From: a virus
Virus record (IMG/VR): IMGVR_UViG_3300037247_000370
Span: 1-40,395 of that record
Length of the DNA: 40,395 nt
Strand: one strand, 5' to 3'
Shown one piece after another: positions 4,616 through 14,514 of the stretch. The notes under the pieces are model-generated. The model was not told the DNA's origin, did not search any database, and saw only the letters and a program-made list of their open reading frames with translations. Both the position numbers and the translations under genes were made by a program. Each line of letters starts with the position of its first letter. Position 1 is the stretch's first letter.

Positions 4616-4995
4616 AGACCGTTTATGTAGTAACCTCGGGAGAGTACTCAGACTATGGTCTCAATGGACTGTTCTCTACTCCTGAGAAGGCCCAGGCCTT
4701 TATGGATAAGAACAAGATCGAACTGTGTTGTGGGCGGGGGCAAATTGAGGAGTGGGAACTAGATGAACTTGTGAAACATACCACCAAAACCGTCTGGTTC
4801 TGTCGAATAAGCATCCACAATGGAGATCTAAACTGGGAATATAATTCTGAAGTGTCCTGCCCTCCTCGGTATAAGGAAGTACATACAAATAGGATACACG
4901 CCTGGGCTCGGTCTTCTATTTCCCAAAAGCACGCCCACAAGTTGGCAGTTGAGAAGCGTCAAGAGGTCCTACGTCTCCGAGAGGCTTCCAAGTGA
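4612..4995 (+). CDS. Small hypothetical phage protein (MKTVYVVTSGEYSDY type)
   Basis: 127 residues from the ATG at 4612, which overlaps the previous stop as ATGA and follows AAGGA. An upstream GTG at 4597 is less likely. The N-terminus, VYVVTSGEYSDYGLNGLFST then EKAQAF, is a recurring pattern in small phage and bacterial proteins of unknown function that start with a strand and an EYSDY motif. The C-terminus is basic and helical. No catalytic residues can be assigned. Its stop overlaps the GTG start of the polymerase gene. Confidence 0.7.
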   Translation: MKTVYVVTSGEYSDYGLNGLFSTPEKAQAFMDKNKIELCCGRGQIEEWELDELVKHTTKTVWFCRISIHNGDLNWEYNSEVSCPPRYKEVHTNRIHAWARSSISQKHAHKLAVEKRQEVLRLREASK

Positions 4996-7760
4996 ATTTT
5001 GGAGTATGTGATCCTGGCTGTCATGCGTGCCCTCTGCACTTACAGTGCCAGACTGTATGTATTGCAGCCGTACGGTATCCCAACGACGTGAGGTGGCCCC
5101 AAGATCGAACCTACTACCACCATGGCAAGGCCCTGTACGTCATAGGAGAGGCTCCTGGGTACAATGAGGACAAGGAGGGACAGGCTTGGGTAGGCAAGGC
5201 AGGAAAGGTCCTCAAAACTGCGTATATCGACTACTTCAAGTTCCCAGACCAAGTAGATGTCTTTCTCTCCAATGCCGTGAGGTGCAGGCCTCTGGGTAAC
5301 AAGACACCCAATACGACCCAGCTCAAGCAGTGTCAGGGCTTCTACCTGGCCGACATTGTCAATCTCCAGAAGATTTATGACCAGGTCATTGTCCTGTGCT
5401 GTGGAGCCGCTGCTACAAAGTCCGTCCTCGCCATGTCCCTAAAGAAGGCATTTTCTAGGCAAGGGAATCTCTCTGATTTCCGAGCATTGACAGCACCTAC
5501 CCCAAAGTCCATAATCCGAGTGGGAGAAGTAGTTGGGCCATTCCTATCCAACCCAACTCTTCCCCCTTTTCCCTCACCATGTCCCGTCTTCGTTACATAC
5601 CACCCTGCTGCCCTTATGAGGGACAAGAATAAGGGGCCATATGTCAACTCCCACCTCTCAATGCTACAGGACTATATAAAGGGAGACTTGACATATGCCA
5701 TCAAAGGGGGTACCCTCAAGATAGATATTGCCCCCTTACCGCCATCTTACCCCATTTCCCGGCTGTCTCTGGACATCGAGACATACGGCATACTCAAGGG
5801 ACAGAACCAAACTCAGTTCCACCCTCTCAAATCCGAAATCCACGATAAGATACCCCGGGAGAGATTGGTGGTCACAACTGCCCTCACCTGGGAGAATCCG
5901 GAGGGGGAGCAGGAACACGCAATCTTCATTATGAGTAAGTTGAAACACAGAAGGAGGCTATGGTCATGGATAAGGAAATGTCACGATACATCAAGCACGT
6001 TGAAGAGTGTCACAGGAAAGTCCTTCAGATACTTGATAGGTCAGAACATAAAGTTCGATCTGATGTATCTGAGACATGCGTACCCGGAGTGCAAACAATG
6101 GCTGGATTACCCCCTACCGATTGTGGACCTAATGGTAACGAACTATCTCTACAACGAGGGAAGGCCAGAGAAGAGTCTAAAGGCCTTGGCCCCCTTACTT
6201 CGAGTGACCCAGTACAATGGAGAATTTACGCAGTACGAAACGGAGTTATGTCCAAGTCTCCATCAATACAACTGTCAGGACACTTCCGCGACATTGATGT
6301 TACAAGACAAGCTGACGGCACTGATTCGACAACTATACGGTTCAGACACACCGAAGACGTCTGGGTTCAGCTTGCAGTGGTACACAAAACTCCTGTGGCT
6401 GACCATATGGATGGAGGAAGAGGGCATTTCCATGAAGGCCACTACGCTCGCTGGTCTTCTCAAGTCAATGAAGTCCAGACTGGAAAGGTTGGAGAGGGGG
6501 ATAACGAGCCGGTGGGGGATCAACCTTCGGGGGAAGGGGAGCAACAAGTGCAAGAGGGAGGTGATGGACGAGGCCTGTCAAGCCTGTCTGGAGAATCAGT
6601 TGGTGATTCCGAAGATGGTAAAGACGAAAGCGAGGCAGGAAATAAGTTTCTGCGAAGAGAACCGAAACTCCTTGCTGGATGTCCTGCCCGCCACTATGAA
6701 TTCAGCCCGGAAATTACGAGCGATAGGACGTGTCCATACTGTGGCTGGTATTTTGGACCGTTATCTGTACCCACTTCTGGTAGGTCGGGGCAAAGGTCAC
6801 ACCGATCCAACAACTCGCCTAATTAAAGGCTTAGCTTACCCTCGCTGGTACGCCACACCCTCCGAATATGAGGATGGGACATCCGGGGGAACCAAGCAAT
6901 GTCGGATTGTGGCCAAAGGCCCCGCCTGCCAGACTTTTCCTCCTCTTATCAAGAAGTGTGTAACCTCTCGATACTCCCATCTCATATGGTTCGACTACTC
7001 CCAAGTAGAGCTGAGGATTGCTGCCCTCTTGAGCAACGATCCGTGGATGATGGGAGAGTACAGTAAGGATGACTGTGACTTCCACCTGGCTACTTCACGA
7101 AGGCTCTTTGGAGACAAGGATGCAAAAAAGTTCCGCCAGATTGGCAAGACTCTTAATTTTCTGGTTATTTACCTCGGAGGGGCCAACCAGTTTCAGACCA
7201 CCCTCATGCGTAACGTAGGTATCCGAAGATCACCGGGTCAGTGCCAAAGGGACATAGATGCCTGGTGGGAACAGGCTGAGGGCTTGCGTAAGTGGCAGGA
7301 TGACCTGTATGAGTCGGTGTGTGAGCTTAGGTACTTCCAGCTCCCATTAGTTGGTCAGTCCCGACTGTTTCTTGGCAACAGGTCTGATGTTAAGGAGAAG
7401 ATGAAAGAGATTGTGAACATGCCGGTACAGGCAGTGGCTGCCAACGTCATGCTCTCGGCCCAGTTTGAATTGCAGTGGTCCTTCAAACAGAAGGGCATGA
7501 AGGCCATTCTCCCCCTGAATGTCTATGATGCGGCCACCATAGAGTGCCCTAAATCAGAGCTTCACACAGTAAAGCGGGAGATGGAGAGAATCCTTCCAAA
7601 CCCTCCCTACTACCAAGCACTGTGTCAAGTCCTTGGCCGGAGTCTTCCGTTGAAATATGATTTGACTTTGGAAGCAAAGAAACCTACAATGGAGAAAGCA
7701 CTATGTTTGACGATTGGATGCCCGAACCAAAGTGGTCCCGGGGAGAAAAAATCTTTGTAG
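4992..7760 (+). CDS. Uracil-DNA glycosylase (family 4) - 3'-5' exonuclease - family A DNA polymerase fusion
   Basis: 922 residues from a GTG at 4992, which overlaps the upstream stop as GTGA. Residues 1-235 form a family 4 Fe-S uracil-DNA glycosylase: cluster cysteines C10, C13, C98 and C114, uracil-pocket motif GEAPGYNED (52-60), and HPAALMRD (204-211). Residues 255-440 are a DnaQ-like proofreading exonuclease with D261/E263 (LDIET), D356 (NIKFD) and Y426/D430. The C-terminal half is a family A polymerase: motif A FDYSQVELR (667-675), motif B R715, K719, F723, Y727, and a QAVAANVM helix. Motif C reads VYDA (844-847) instead of VHDE; the catalytic Asp is kept. It should copy phage DNA and recognise uracil, acting in the cytoplasm. 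The C-terminal 20 residues overlap the next small gene. Confidence 0.93.
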   Translation: MNFGVCDPGCHACPLHLQCQTVCIAAVRYPNDVRWPQDRTYYHHGKALYVIGEAPGYNEDKEGQAWVGKAGKVLKTAYIDYFKFPDQVDVFLSNAVRCRPLGNKTPNTTQLKQCQGFYLADIVNLQKIYDQVIVLCCGAAATKSVLAMSLKKAFSRQGNLSDFRALTAPTPKSIIRVGEVVGPFLSNPTLPPFPSPCPVFVTYHPAALMRDKNKGPYVNSHLSMLQDYIKGDLTYAIKGGTLKIDIAPLPPSYPISRLSLDIETYGILKGQNQTQFHPLKSEIHDKIPRERLVVTTALTWENPEGEQEHAIFIMSKLKHRRRLWSWIRKCHDTSSTLKSVTGKSFRYLIGQNIKFDLMYLRHAYPECKQWLDYPLPIVDLMVTNYLYNEGRPEKSLKALAPLLRVTQYNGEFTQYETELCPSLHQYNCQDTSATLMLQDKLTALIRQLYGSDTPKTSGFSLQWYTKLLWLTIWMEEEGISMKATTLAGLLKSMKSRLERLERGITSRWGINLRGKGSNKCKREVMDEACQACLENQLVIPKMVKTKARQEISFCEENRNSLLDVLPATMNSARKLRAIGRVHTVAGILDRYLYPLLVGRGKGHTDPTTRLIKGLAYPRWYATPSEYEDGTSGGTKQCRIVAKGPACQTFPPLIKKCVTSRYSHLIWFDYSQVELRIAALLSNDPWMMGEYSKDDCDFHLATSRRLFGDKDAKKFRQIGKTLNFLVIYLGGANQFQTTLMRNVGIRRSPGQCQRDIDAWWEQAEGLRKWQDDLYESVCELRYFQLPLVGQSRLFLGNRSDVKEKMKEIVNMPVQAVAANVMLSAQFELQWSFKQKGMKAILPLNVYDAATIECPKSELHTVKREMERILPNPPYYQALCQVLGRSLPLKYDLTLEAKKPTMEKALCLTIGCPNQSGPGEKKSL
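7676..7710 (+). repeat. Direct repeat, copy 1, around a start codon
   Basis: The 23 bases at 7676-7698 recur exactly at 7824-7846, and similarity continues through the start codon into TGTTTGA. The unit contains GGAG and the start codon of a small membrane protein. Copy 1 is simultaneously the end of the polymerase reading frame. The offset is 148 bp. Confidence 0.85.
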
Positions 7761-11967: not shown

Positions 11968-12832
11968 CCTGGCTAAGATTCCCGGGGTCACTACTGGCTT
12001 CCGGCCCGTGTCTGTAAACCGGGGGAGATTTGTATTCACCGGCAGGCCCGGGTGCGGAAAGAGCACCTTGGTACATAACAACCCCAAGGCTTTTATTCTG
12101 GACCACGATCAGGGTGGCAATACGGTAGACGATCCCCGGGCCATCCGCTACTGTCCCGACCCCGACAAGACTCCGGAGGGAGCCACCGCTGATGCCTATC
12201 GAAACATTGTAGATGTCCTCATCGCTCGTCGTAAGAAGGGAGCAAAAGACATTGAGATGATTGCTCTTGATACATATGATGAACTGATAGAGATTTTCCT
12301 TCGGGACTTCTGCCTCAAGCACAAGCTAGAGGACCCTTTGGACTATAAGAGCGGGGAGGGTAATGCCTACAGCATAGTTCGACGAGACATCTTCGAAATT
12401 CTAAACCGGGCCTACCGAGCTGGCTTTGGCTGGGCCATCCTGGTCAACGTCACTCCCAAGGTCATTCGTCACGGTGGTGAAGAAAGAACGGTCCTATCTC
12501 TGTCCGTCTCGGAGTCCTTTGCCAATGCCGTGCGTAAGAAGTGTGAGCACTTCATGTACCTGGCCTATCATACCAAGACAGTGAAAGGTCCTCCAACAAC
12601 TCGCACTATTGGGGGTAAGAAGGTGACTATACCGGGAGAGACTAGGAAGGAGGAGTGCCGCCTTCTCAAGACCAAGCCCGGTACTCTTTGGGCCGGAGAA
12701 ACTACTGATGAGGTTAAGGTTCGGATACCGTTTCCGGACTCCACGGAAATTCCTCGCCTCGGGGGATGGGATGTGTTTACTAGGGTCTATGACGAGGCAA
12801 TCCAAACTCTTACAAAAGGAGTAAAAGTATGA
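11930..12832 (+). CDS. Sak4-like RecA-fold ATPase (single-strand annealing/recombination)
   Basis: 300 residues from the ATG at 11930, which has GGAGG six bases upstream. An in-frame upstream ATG would run through the zinc protein and lacks such a site. Walker A is GRPGCGKST (38-46), the Walker B strand ends MIALDTYDE (D114), and a basic region follows. Phage proteins of this kind (Sak4/AAA_24 group) bind ssDNA and promote annealing, and typically pair with an SSB as here. The next gene, SSB-like, starts inside its stop (ATGA). Confidence 0.85.
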   Translation: MSSQTITSPIPSDLAKIPGVTTGFRPVSVNRGRFVFTGRPGCGKSTLVHNNPKAFILDHDQGGNTVDDPRAIRYCPDPDKTPEGATADAYRNIVDVLIARRKKGAKDIEMIALDTYDELIEIFLRDFCLKHKLEDPLDYKSGEGNAYSIVRRDIFEILNRAYRAGFGWAILVNVTPKVIRHGGEERTVLSLSVSESFANAVRKKCEHFMYLAYHTKTVKGPPTTRTIGGKKVTIPGETRKEECRLLKTKPGTLWAGETTDEVKVRIPFPDSTEIPRLGGWDVFTRVYDEAIQTLTKGVKV

Positions 12833-13344
12833 GTGACATTGATGCTGGGTTTATGGAGGTACTGGAAAGTTGTGCCGGTGCTGAGGGAGAGGTGGACTAC
12901 TCAGACGATGGGTGGAAGCCCGAAGATGGGGAGTACACTGTACTCCTGGAGAAGTTTACCTGTGGCACTACAGAAAAGAACGGAATCTCCAACGGGAGGG
13001 GCAATGCCATCTTCCGAATCCTCTCGGGAGACTTTACCGGCAGGTCGTTTGGGGAGTTCTTCTGGCTGCCGTCCAATGCAAAGCAGACCTCGCCTGGAAT
13101 GGCTAACCTGCTTCGCCTTGCTACCTGTATCTGTGACCGGGAGTTCAAGGTATCTGAAATCGGAGAGGCGGGGCAACTGATTGGAGACAACTGTGGATCG
13201 GCAGTCCTCAGTGTCCGGGTCTTTTCTACCACTCGCCAGTCGGATGGTAAGGTGTTTGTAAACACACGATTCCTTACCCTGATTGACGAGCCAATTGAGC
13301 CGCCCATCGATCCTTCCCAGGTCGAGGCACCGGCCACAGCGTAA
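12829..13344 (+). CDS. Single-stranded DNA-binding protein-like (DUF669 type)
   Basis: 171 residues. The pattern DDGWKPEDGEYTVLLEKF, then IFRILSGDFTGRSFGEFFWL, then ANLLRLATCICD, resembles the DUF669/SSB-like proteins that follow Sak4 genes in many phages. These have an OB-fold-like core and an acidic or Pro-rich tail (EPPIDPSQVEAPATA here). It probably coats ssDNA during replication and recombination. The gene overlaps the Sak4-like stop and ends 12 bases before a tRNA-like element. The end of the gene is also the first part of a direct repeat. Confidence 0.72.
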   Translation: MSDIDAGFMEVLESCAGAEGEVDYSDDGWKPEDGEYTVLLEKFTCGTTEKNGISNGRGNAIFRILSGDFTGRSFGEFFWLPSNAKQTSPGMANLLRLATCICDREFKVSEIGEAGQLIGDNCGSAVLSVRVFSTTRQSDGKVFVNTRFLTLIDEPIEPPIDPSQVEAPATA

Positions 13345-13362
13345 AAGCTAGCCGGAGGATCG
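13333..13362 (+). repeat. Direct repeat copy 1, leading into tRNA-like element 1
   Basis: A 30-base stretch (GCCACAGC..TAAA.GCTAG.CGGAGG.TCG) that recurs at 13437-13466 with 26 of 30 identities and an offset of 104 bases. Copy 1 covers the last codons and stop of the SSB-like gene and the 5' side of the acceptor stem of the tRNA-like element. Confidence 0.85.
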
Positions 13363-13410
13363 AGTGGCATTCGCCCAGACGTGGGGTCGGTTCGATTCCG
13401 ACACGATCCT
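13357..13410 (+). tRNA. Truncated tRNA-like element 1 (acceptor and T arm, middle shortened)
   Basis: The 5' GGATCG pairs with CGATCC at 13404-13409. A canonical T arm is present: stem GTCGG/CCGAC and loop TTCGATT (13386-13402). Only 22 bases lie between the acceptor strand and the T arm, about half of what a D arm plus anticodon arm needs; one GGC-ATTC-GCC mini-hairpin can form there. No anticodon can be assigned and no CCA is encoded. It is therefore a tRNA-like element or tRNA remnant, not a normal tRNA. Confidence 0.5.
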
Positions 13411-13413
13411 TTA

Positions 13414-13424
13414 ACCGGGAGAGA
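13414..13424 (+). promoter_or_regulatory. ACCGGGAGAGR motif acting as ribosome site of a mini-ORF
   Basis: An exact copy of the genome-wide 11-bp motif, here outside coding sequence between the two tRNA-like elements. Its GGGAGAGA lies 4 bases before an ATG and could serve as a Shine-Dalgarno sequence. Confidence 0.5.
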
Positions 13425-13428
13425 TTAA

Positions 13429-13455
13429 ATGTCAAAGCCACAGCCTAAAGGCTAG
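13429..13455 (+). CDS. Eight-codon mini-ORF between tRNA-like elements
   Basis: ATG at 13429 to TAG at 13455 encodes MSKPQPKG. It follows GGGAGAGA at good spacing. It may be a real leader peptide, but it may equally be the remnant of a gene shortened by the tandem duplication: its end occupies the same place in repeat copy 2 as the SSB gene end does in copy 1. Confidence 0.35.
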   Translation: MSKPQPKG

Positions 13456-13466
13456 TCGGAGGGTCG
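13437..13466 (+). repeat. Direct repeat copy 2, leading into tRNA-like element 2
   Basis: Second copy of the 30-base repeat, 104 bases after copy 1. It covers the end of the mini-ORF, its TAG, and the 5' acceptor strand of tRNA-like element 2. Confidence 0.85.
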
Positions 13467-13532
13467 GTAGTCCAATGGTAGAGACAGGCAGACAATGCTT
13501 CGACAGTCCCGGTTCGATTCCGGGTCGACCCT
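13461..13532 (+). tRNA. tRNA-like element 2 with aberrant anticodon arm
   Basis: The 71 bases from 13461 to 13531 fold with a 7-bp acceptor stem (GGGTCGG with TCGACCC, one G-T). The D arm has a 3-bp stem (GTC/GAC) and a loop containing the conserved GG. The T arm is perfect (CCCGG, TTCGATT, CCGGG). Overall length is right for a tRNA. The anticodon arm is not: the best stem (13486-13490 with 13496-13500) leaves a 5-base loop, GACAA, with no U33-like residue, so no anticodon is assignable. No CCA is encoded. It could be a processing signal or a degenerate tRNA. Confidence 0.6.
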
Positions 13533-13551
13533 GTAACAAGGAGAAGTTCTA

Positions 13552-14037
13552 ATGGCCAAGACTACAAGGTGTACGGCAAGTGTCTGGCCCCATAGACGCA
13601 CAGATGAACTGACTGGTCCTCTTGACCTTACCATAAGCTACAAAAACCAACACCCACTAGTACAAGAGGGGTTCTTTGGGAGGTATGCGTTTATCACCTT
13701 GGTACAACCAGACGACAAAACCAATCTCACCCTCATGCAGTTGGTATTTGCCCGGGAACACTACACCTTCTGTCCTTACTCCCAGGTACAGCAGTCTAAC
13801 AAAGTCCGGGTCTACCGTAAGGGTCGGAGCAAGGCGATAAAGGTCTACATCCGAAGCCGCCTAACCAATAAAATGGATCACCCTATTCCCCTGGGAGCCT
13901 GGGAGGGGACCCTAAGTGAGGACAATAGTGGACCCCAGAATGGAGTGGTGTATACATTCCAAGCCATGACGGCCAAGGTTGTAAAGAAGAAGCCACTTAT
14001 TATCTTACCGGGAGAGGAGGGGTTCGTGCTACCATGA
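13552..14037 (+). CDS. Hypothetical early protein
   Basis: 161 residues starting MAKTTRCTASVWPHRR, after an AAGGAGAAG ribosome site just downstream of tRNA-like element 2. The composition is basic and mixed alpha/beta (KVRVYRKGRSKAIKVYIRSRL). A PLGAWEGTLSEDNSGPQNGVVYTF segment suggests a beta-rich C-terminal part. I do not recognise a family and see no catalytic motif. Its stop overlaps the next start as ATGA. Confidence 0.65.
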   Translation: MAKTTRCTASVWPHRRTDELTGPLDLTISYKNQHPLVQEGFFGRYAFITLVQPDDKTNLTLMQLVFAREHYTFCPYSQVQQSNKVRVYRKGRSKAIKVYIRSRLTNKMDHPIPLGAWEGTLSEDNSGPQNGVVYTFQAMTAKVVKKKPLIILPGEEGFVLP

Positions 14038-14222
14038 CCATTTTTCCTCAGATGTCAGAAGACCCCCATGATGACCTGTGCTGGGAGTGTGGTAGAGAGG
14101 TAGCAGAGTGTGCATGTGGTACAACTCTCCCGGATGATTTTGATCCCATGGATGAGAATGGACCAGACCCAGACTGGGATGAGTATGAGGATGACCTAAC
14201 CAAGGAGACGAACGATGACTAA
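14034..14222 (+). CDS. Small acidic protein with CxxC pair
   Basis: 62 residues, very acidic at the C-terminus (DPDWDEYEDDLTKETNDD). CWEC and CAC motifs near residues 16-28 could bind one zinc ion. The start overlaps the previous stop as ATGA and the end overlaps the GroES-like gene by 8 bases. Acidic proteins of this size are sometimes DNA mimics or partners; that is speculation here. Confidence 0.6.
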   Translation: MTIFPQMSEDPHDDLCWECGREVAECACGTTLPDDFDPMDENGPDPDWDEYEDDLTKETNDD

Positions 14223-14514
14223 GAAGAACACAGTTAAGCCACCGTGGGGTGCAGCACCCCTGGGTAAGAGAGTGATGCTAGTAAAGGATGAGGCCCTGTC
14301 CACTTCCGAAGGAGGCATAGTCATTCCCGAGAATGCCAGAGAGAAGCCCCTTATAGCTCACATCATCAGCGTAGGAGTGGACGTAACAACTATGAAGCCT
14401 GGAGATGAGGTAATCTATGCCTCCTTTGCTGGGACCGACTTCAACATCAATGGGGTCGACGTGATTGTGGTGGACGAAGAGGACATCATGTTGATACTGA
14501 AGGACAAGAACTAA
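14215..14514 (+). CDS. groES: GroES-like co-chaperonin
   Basis: 99 residues that follow the GroES/Cpn10 pattern throughout: PLGKRVMLVKDEA, the mobile-loop region (STSEGGIVIPENAREKP) with the GGIVIP anchor that docks on GroEL, the VGVDVTTMKPGDEVIYASFAGTDF core, and the C-terminal strand DVIVVDEEDIMLIL. It should cap the host GroEL chamber during folding of a phage protein, by analogy with T4 gp31 and the capsid protein. It lies in the early unit between two small zinc-type genes. Confidence 0.92.
   Translation: MTKKNTVKPPWGAAPLGKRVMLVKDEALSTSEGGIVIPENAREKPLIAHIISVGVDVTTMKPGDEVIYASFAGTDFNINGVDVIVVDEEDIMLILKDKN

Follow-up and report, generated by a model that had tools for sequence, protein, structure and literature searches.

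Behind an SSB-like gene in a 40,395-base virus record, which was analyzed at full length and is called the window here, two tRNA-like folds (E1 and E2) lie in tandem copies of one intercistronic block. Both folds retain the acceptor and T stems of a tRNA, these stems have changed in a compensatory manner, and similar folds occupy the same position in related phages. Because the anticodon loops are abnormal or absent, the stems compensatory, and the position conserved, the comparison of sequences supports the reading of E1 and E2 as non-decoding tRNA-like folds. We give about an even chance to the proposal that they are t-element-like RNase P/RNase Z processing or 3′-end signals exapted from a tRNA gene.

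Genomic context

The + strand of the window carries a replication arm that includes a UDG-PolA fusion (a uracil-DNA glycosylase domain fused to a family A DNA polymerase, window 4992–7760), an exonuclease, a Sak4-like recombinase, an SSB-like protein, and a GroES-like protein (gene at 14215–14514). The minus-strand arm includes the terminase. A single-sequence scan with the SSB-like protein returned no match; the homolog in the relative L128 matched the SSB family phrog_378 (PHROG), and an AlphaFold model of the family matched the plasmid SSB PrgE (prob 1.00, E 9.8e-4). Family searches with the gene that follows the elements gave no match. A wider-family protein encoded in that position had no PDB fold match, and homology between the next gene and the wider-family proteins there was looked for and not supported. 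The features around the SSB-like gene are as follows.

12829–13344, + strand: SSB-like gene (OB fold), after the Sak4-like recombinase gene, with the tRNA-like elements directly 3′
13333–13436, + strand: duplicated unit, copy 1 (SSB gene end, E1, motif, and ATG)
13356–13410, + strand: tRNA-like element E1, 55 nt
13414–13423, + strand: copy of ACCGGGAGAG, a 10-bp motif dispersed genome-wide, which had been taken for a dedicated Shine-Dalgarno sequence
13429–13455, + strand: 8-codon ORF MSKPQPKG, at the duplication junction according to the unit alignment
13437–13554, + strand: duplicated unit, copy 2, from the unit alignment
13460–13532, + strand: tRNA-like element E2, ~73 nt, with a 7–8-bp acceptor, D arm, and T arm
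13538–13543, + strand: Shine-Dalgarno AAGGAG of the next gene, from the sequence
13552–14037, + strand: next gene, of unknown function, without a family match

Structure of E1 and E2

The first-pass annotation had described tRNA-like folds with a perfect T arm (loop TTCGATT), and these were present in both elements, each with a canonical 7-bp acceptor and a 5-bp T stem with a TTCRANY loop. In E1, the acceptor is AGGATCG/CGATCCT (13356–13362/13404–13410) and the T arm is GTCGG-TTCGATT-CCGAC (13386–13402). The 23-nt middle that separates them forms one small hairpin, and E1 is indeed too short for both D and anticodon arms, as had been noted. Also as described, the minimum-energy fold of E2 showed acceptor, D, and T arms together with a pseudo-anticodon arm of 5 bp and a 5-nt loop. 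Neither element has the canonical anticodon arm of a tRNA (5-bp stem, 7-nt loop, U33): E1 has no room for one, and E2 has either the 5-nt loop or a mismatched stem with A33. An encoded CCA was absent from the elements.

These features bear on whether the elements are working tRNAs with unusual anticodon arms, which we regard as very improbable. ARAGORN called E2 tRNA-His(ATG) and L051 tRNA-Pro(AGG), but the call for E2 was not a clean one: it placed two mismatches in an anticodon stem of 5 bp and had A33. Moreover, E1 and its counterparts in L002, L010, L057, and L126 have 4–6-nt loops or no arm. The check by an Infernal-type tRNA model was divided: E2 scored 33.1 bits against Rfam tRNA (RF00005; gathering 29) when a short stretch was searched, and no tRNA match, E2 included, passed in the whole-window search. 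Two other identities were tried for E1 and rejected, namely selenocysteine tRNA (21.6 bits vs a cut-off of 47) and mascRNA/menRNA (RF01684; 16.5 bits vs a gathering score of 42.5).

The folding energies of E1 and E2 as single sequences were unexceptional compared to those of shuffled sequences (z about −1.1); the evidence for the folds is comparative. In a long-transcript fold, an alternative pairing competed with E1.

Tandem duplication and the mini-ORF

Window 13333–13551 consists of a ~104-bp block, extending from the end of the SSB gene to the next start codon, and its tandem duplicate. Local alignment of the two units scored 72.5, compared to 32 for the best of 500 shuffles, and covered the stretch from the last SSB codons through the next start codon. 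This confirmed the earlier description of two 104-base units that each contain a 30-base repeat (13333–13362 and 13437–13466, spacing 104). The T arms, at about 13388 and 13510, are spaced 122 apart. Comparison of E1 with E2 showed compensatory changes at three pairs, affecting both the acceptor and T stems.

Since the units align from the SSB tail to the next start, the mini-ORF between the elements starts as a copy of the downstream start and ends in the SSB-tail copy. Thus, MSKPQPKG is best read from the alignment as the duplicated downstream start codon joined to a duplicated SSB tail that is out of frame; its start, MSK, resembles the MAK of the next gene, and it requires no function of its own. 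The ORF reported in the first-pass annotation exists, but is best seen as a duplication junction, and the analysis gave no support for a designed feature. Its supposed Shine-Dalgarno sequence was not upheld either, as it falls in ACCGGGAGAG, which recurs at over 20 places in the genome, chiefly within genes. The earlier idea of tRNA-like folds that are not translators was supported by the loops, covariation, and position, but the mini-ORF with its ribosome site was not supported as part of the design.

The dispersed motif was found as 21 copies of CCGGGAGAG vs 0.35 expected, and as 24 sites of CCGGGAGA (e.g., 4048, 5855, 8275, 12632, 13415, 14008, 21467, 33640, and 40167). The copies lie on both strands, mostly inside genes, and in all reading frames. 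Every related phage carries a dispersed motif of its own, 9–12 bp long and likewise on both strands and mostly intragenic: AGCCGGGAGAG in L002, GCAGAGACAGG in L003, and TGTGGGTGAGATT in L007 and L012. The wider family shares CCTCCGCAG (L046, L051, L055–L058, L060, L061, L063, and L129) at a density of about 0.6–1.5 per kb, with 0.04–0.2 copies expected per locus. The SSB-downstream gap of seven close genomes contained 8 motif copies vs about 0.64 expected, all on the sense strand, and that of eight wider genomes contained none. The motif may mark where a phage DNA-binding protein attaches, in the manner of a stoperator, or may serve as a replication or recombination signal. The nearest analogy is the mycobacteriophage stoperators, which are predominantly in one orientation relative to transcription (PMC6550527), whereas the window motif has no such predominant orientation.

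The site behind the SSB gene in related phages

IMG/VR protein searches yielded the close relatives L002, L004, L010, L012, and L003, and a wider family with about 30% PolA identity. The gene order exonuclease, Sak4, SSB was conserved among the relatives. Among annotated phages, there were no close DNA relatives, and PolA matched distant ones only. No relative of the exonuclease was found in bacterial and archaeal genome contigs, and a scan with the DNA pattern of the tRNA-like element gave no match. The following were observed directly behind the SSB gene.

L002: 46 nt; between the acceptor (AGGATCG/CGATCCT) and the T arm, a single arm of 4 bp with a GAAA loop
L010: 50 nt; a single arm between the acceptor (AGGACTG/CAGTCCT) and the T arm
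L012: tRNA-like, about 160 nt
L057: 67 nt; D arm, 6-nt loop; Rfam tRNA 50.7 bits
L126: 72 nt; D arm, 4-nt loop; Rfam tRNA 49 bits
L061, L145, and L150: tRNA-like, 57–66 nt
L051: at least one tRNA-like element, apparently more
L128: genuine tRNA-His (GTG); Rfam tRNA 63.5 bits

The middle of the element measures between 14 and 127 nt. Structurally, it runs from a D arm with a short-looped anticodon arm (L057 and L126) to one small arm (L002 and L010). Some relatives, such as L004, have no tRNA-like element behind the SSB gene; in L004, L003, and several members of the wider set, GC-rich stem-loops stand in its place. We also observed several tRNA-like units in a row in L051 (15208–15540), the last of which has a long insertion at the anticodon-loop position and stops a few bases short of the following ATG. 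A conserved GC-rich two-part hairpin lies just before the next gene in L004 (8248–8284), L010 (13089–13124), and L012 (7406–7441). It has a CUGGY pentaloop and the form GGGGGACCGC..GGCUGGUCC..GUCCCCC; its loop and outer stem co-vary, and it is possibly bistable.

The elements could be plain transcription terminators or mRNA-stabilizing hairpins in which the tRNA likeness is history only. A hairpin followed by a T run at the SSB-downstream site of some other relatives and TTT(T) located 3′ of many tRNA-like elements are consistent with this. Nevertheless, the conserved TTCRANY T loop and 7/5-bp stem geometry would be needless for a terminator, the window elements lack a long T run, and no intrinsic terminator (G+C-rich stem then T run) was called on the + strand at 13345–13551, which makes this explanation distinctly unlikely.

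Position and covariation

In 11 of the 24 related uncultured phages, a tRNA-like or tRNA fold (in one case the genuine tRNA) was found no more than 400 nt beyond the SSB stop, compared to 13 of 5487 control windows taken from the contigs of these phages. The scan score combined acceptor, T stem, and T loop with a threshold of at least 16 of 18. The Fisher p value of 1.7e-21 is approximate because the control windows overlap and the genomes are related. Some control matches resemble real tRNA-like elements (L051 17771 and L063 7857). In a previous scan, reversed sequences yielded 0 matches. As in a t-element, a tRNA-like fold thus occupies a non-coding stretch beside a gene, here behind SSB.

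This strong tie to the gap behind SSB suggests that the elements act in cis. It argues against a free small RNA that is excised and works in trans, with a stable tRNA-like form that would decoy RNase P, tRNA-modifying enzymes, or tRNA-cleaving host defences, as does the lack of a promoter-like site immediately upstream of the window elements. Such a decoy appears unlikely, although host tRNA-cleaving defences cut anticodon loops and a top-half fold without the loop would survive anticodon nucleases. It would also accord with a 126-nt tRNA-like element in L063 (7857–7982), which is not behind SSB and follows closely on a promoter-like TTGACT-17-TATAAT sequence.

Double changes were seen in 9 of 13 acceptor/T-stem pairs, with 96.9% paired, and in 10 of 12 in the nine-element set, although these counts overstate the covariation because most elements entered the alignment through pairing. 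E1 and E2 were picked in the first-pass annotation, independently of the pairing-based scan. Decaying, non-functional tRNA genes would account for the genuine tRNA-His in L128, for anticodon arms damaged differently between phages, and for the loss of the element in L004. However, nearly all acceptor/T-stem pairs changed compensatorily, tandem copies included, and the element is retained in roughly half of this highly divergent family; we therefore consider decay quite improbable.

A partial tRNA from the attP of an integrating phage is extremely improbable. Partial prokaryotic tRNA genes commonly arise through integration (PMC9897764), but the 5′ strand of the acceptor covaries with the 3′ strand, which is unneeded for attP. 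Tyrosine and serine recombinase families were absent from 15 records, several of 49–57 kb, which may be incomplete, and the attachment-site reading was rejected on this lack of an integrase.

Proposed processing role

RNase P and RNase Z recognize the acceptor-T domain, the top half of a tRNA. Punctuation by these enzymes, a suggestion of the first-pass annotation that the comparison of relatives strengthens, fits best, because only the top half that they read is kept and because a tRNA, a tRNA-like element, and a plain hairpin interchange at one site. We infer transcription through the site, cleavage, and an effect on expression. Within the polycistronic phage mRNA, acceptor and T stem would stack to form a tRNA top half. 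The 5′ side would be cut by host RNase P, and the 3′ cut would fall to RNase Z or 3′ exonucleases. These cuts would give the SSB message a defined 3′ end and separate it from the next cistron, which would be translated from its own Shine-Dalgarno sequence. As decoding would not be needed, the middle of the molecule could become shorter or longer. The window carries two tandem copies of the entire intercistronic block, and pairing has been kept in both. In L057, L150, and L051, only a few bases separate the last tRNA-like element from the next gene's start codon, such that 3′ cleavage there would leave nearly leaderless messages.

With a probability somewhat short of even, a lineage of tailed phages turned a decoding tRNA gene behind SSB into cis-acting RNase P/Z punctuation with the stages still visible, namely an intact tRNA-His, a 4–6-nt anticodon loop, a minimal form without an anticodon arm, and a tandem duplicate. 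Such a series from tRNA to minimal fold renders the transition testable. Codon supply is the usual explanation for phage tRNAs. A tRNA-shaped RNA kept at a fixed position of a replication operon after loss of the anticodon points to tRNA-processing enzymes shaping phage messages. Nearly all these elements were missed by annotation programs.

Comparison with known systems

No description of such phage elements was found in the open-access literature. Among the Rfam-scored elements (E2, L126, L057, and L128), the likeness to Rfam tRNA (RF00005) lies in the scores, and the difference is that the normal anticodon loop is present in L128 only. The mascRNA/menRNA are small tRNA-like RNAs whose arms are reduced and which RNase P and RNase Z cleave; they differ from E1 in being mammalian, and the E1 match is far below the gathering score. 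M3 RNA (phi80) and C4 RNA are non-tRNA phage RNAs cut by RNase P (PMC11143913). E1 and E2 resemble them as phage RNAs that are not tRNAs and as RNase P substrates, putatively so for E1 and E2. To our knowledge, M3 and C4 RNA have no known location behind an SSB gene.

At plant mitochondrial transcript ends, tRNAs, t-elements, and stem-loops interchange, and a pseudo-tRNA is kept only as a processing signal (PMC6801519). The elements described here are similarly intergenic tRNA-like folds that are interchangeable with tRNAs and stem-loops. They differ in belonging to phages and not to an organelle, in that cleavage is putative, and in that the anticodon arm is often wholly gone. Together, the interchange at one site, the plant mitochondrial parallel, and the phage RNase P substrates lead us to rate intercistronic processing or 3′-end formation as evenly poised.
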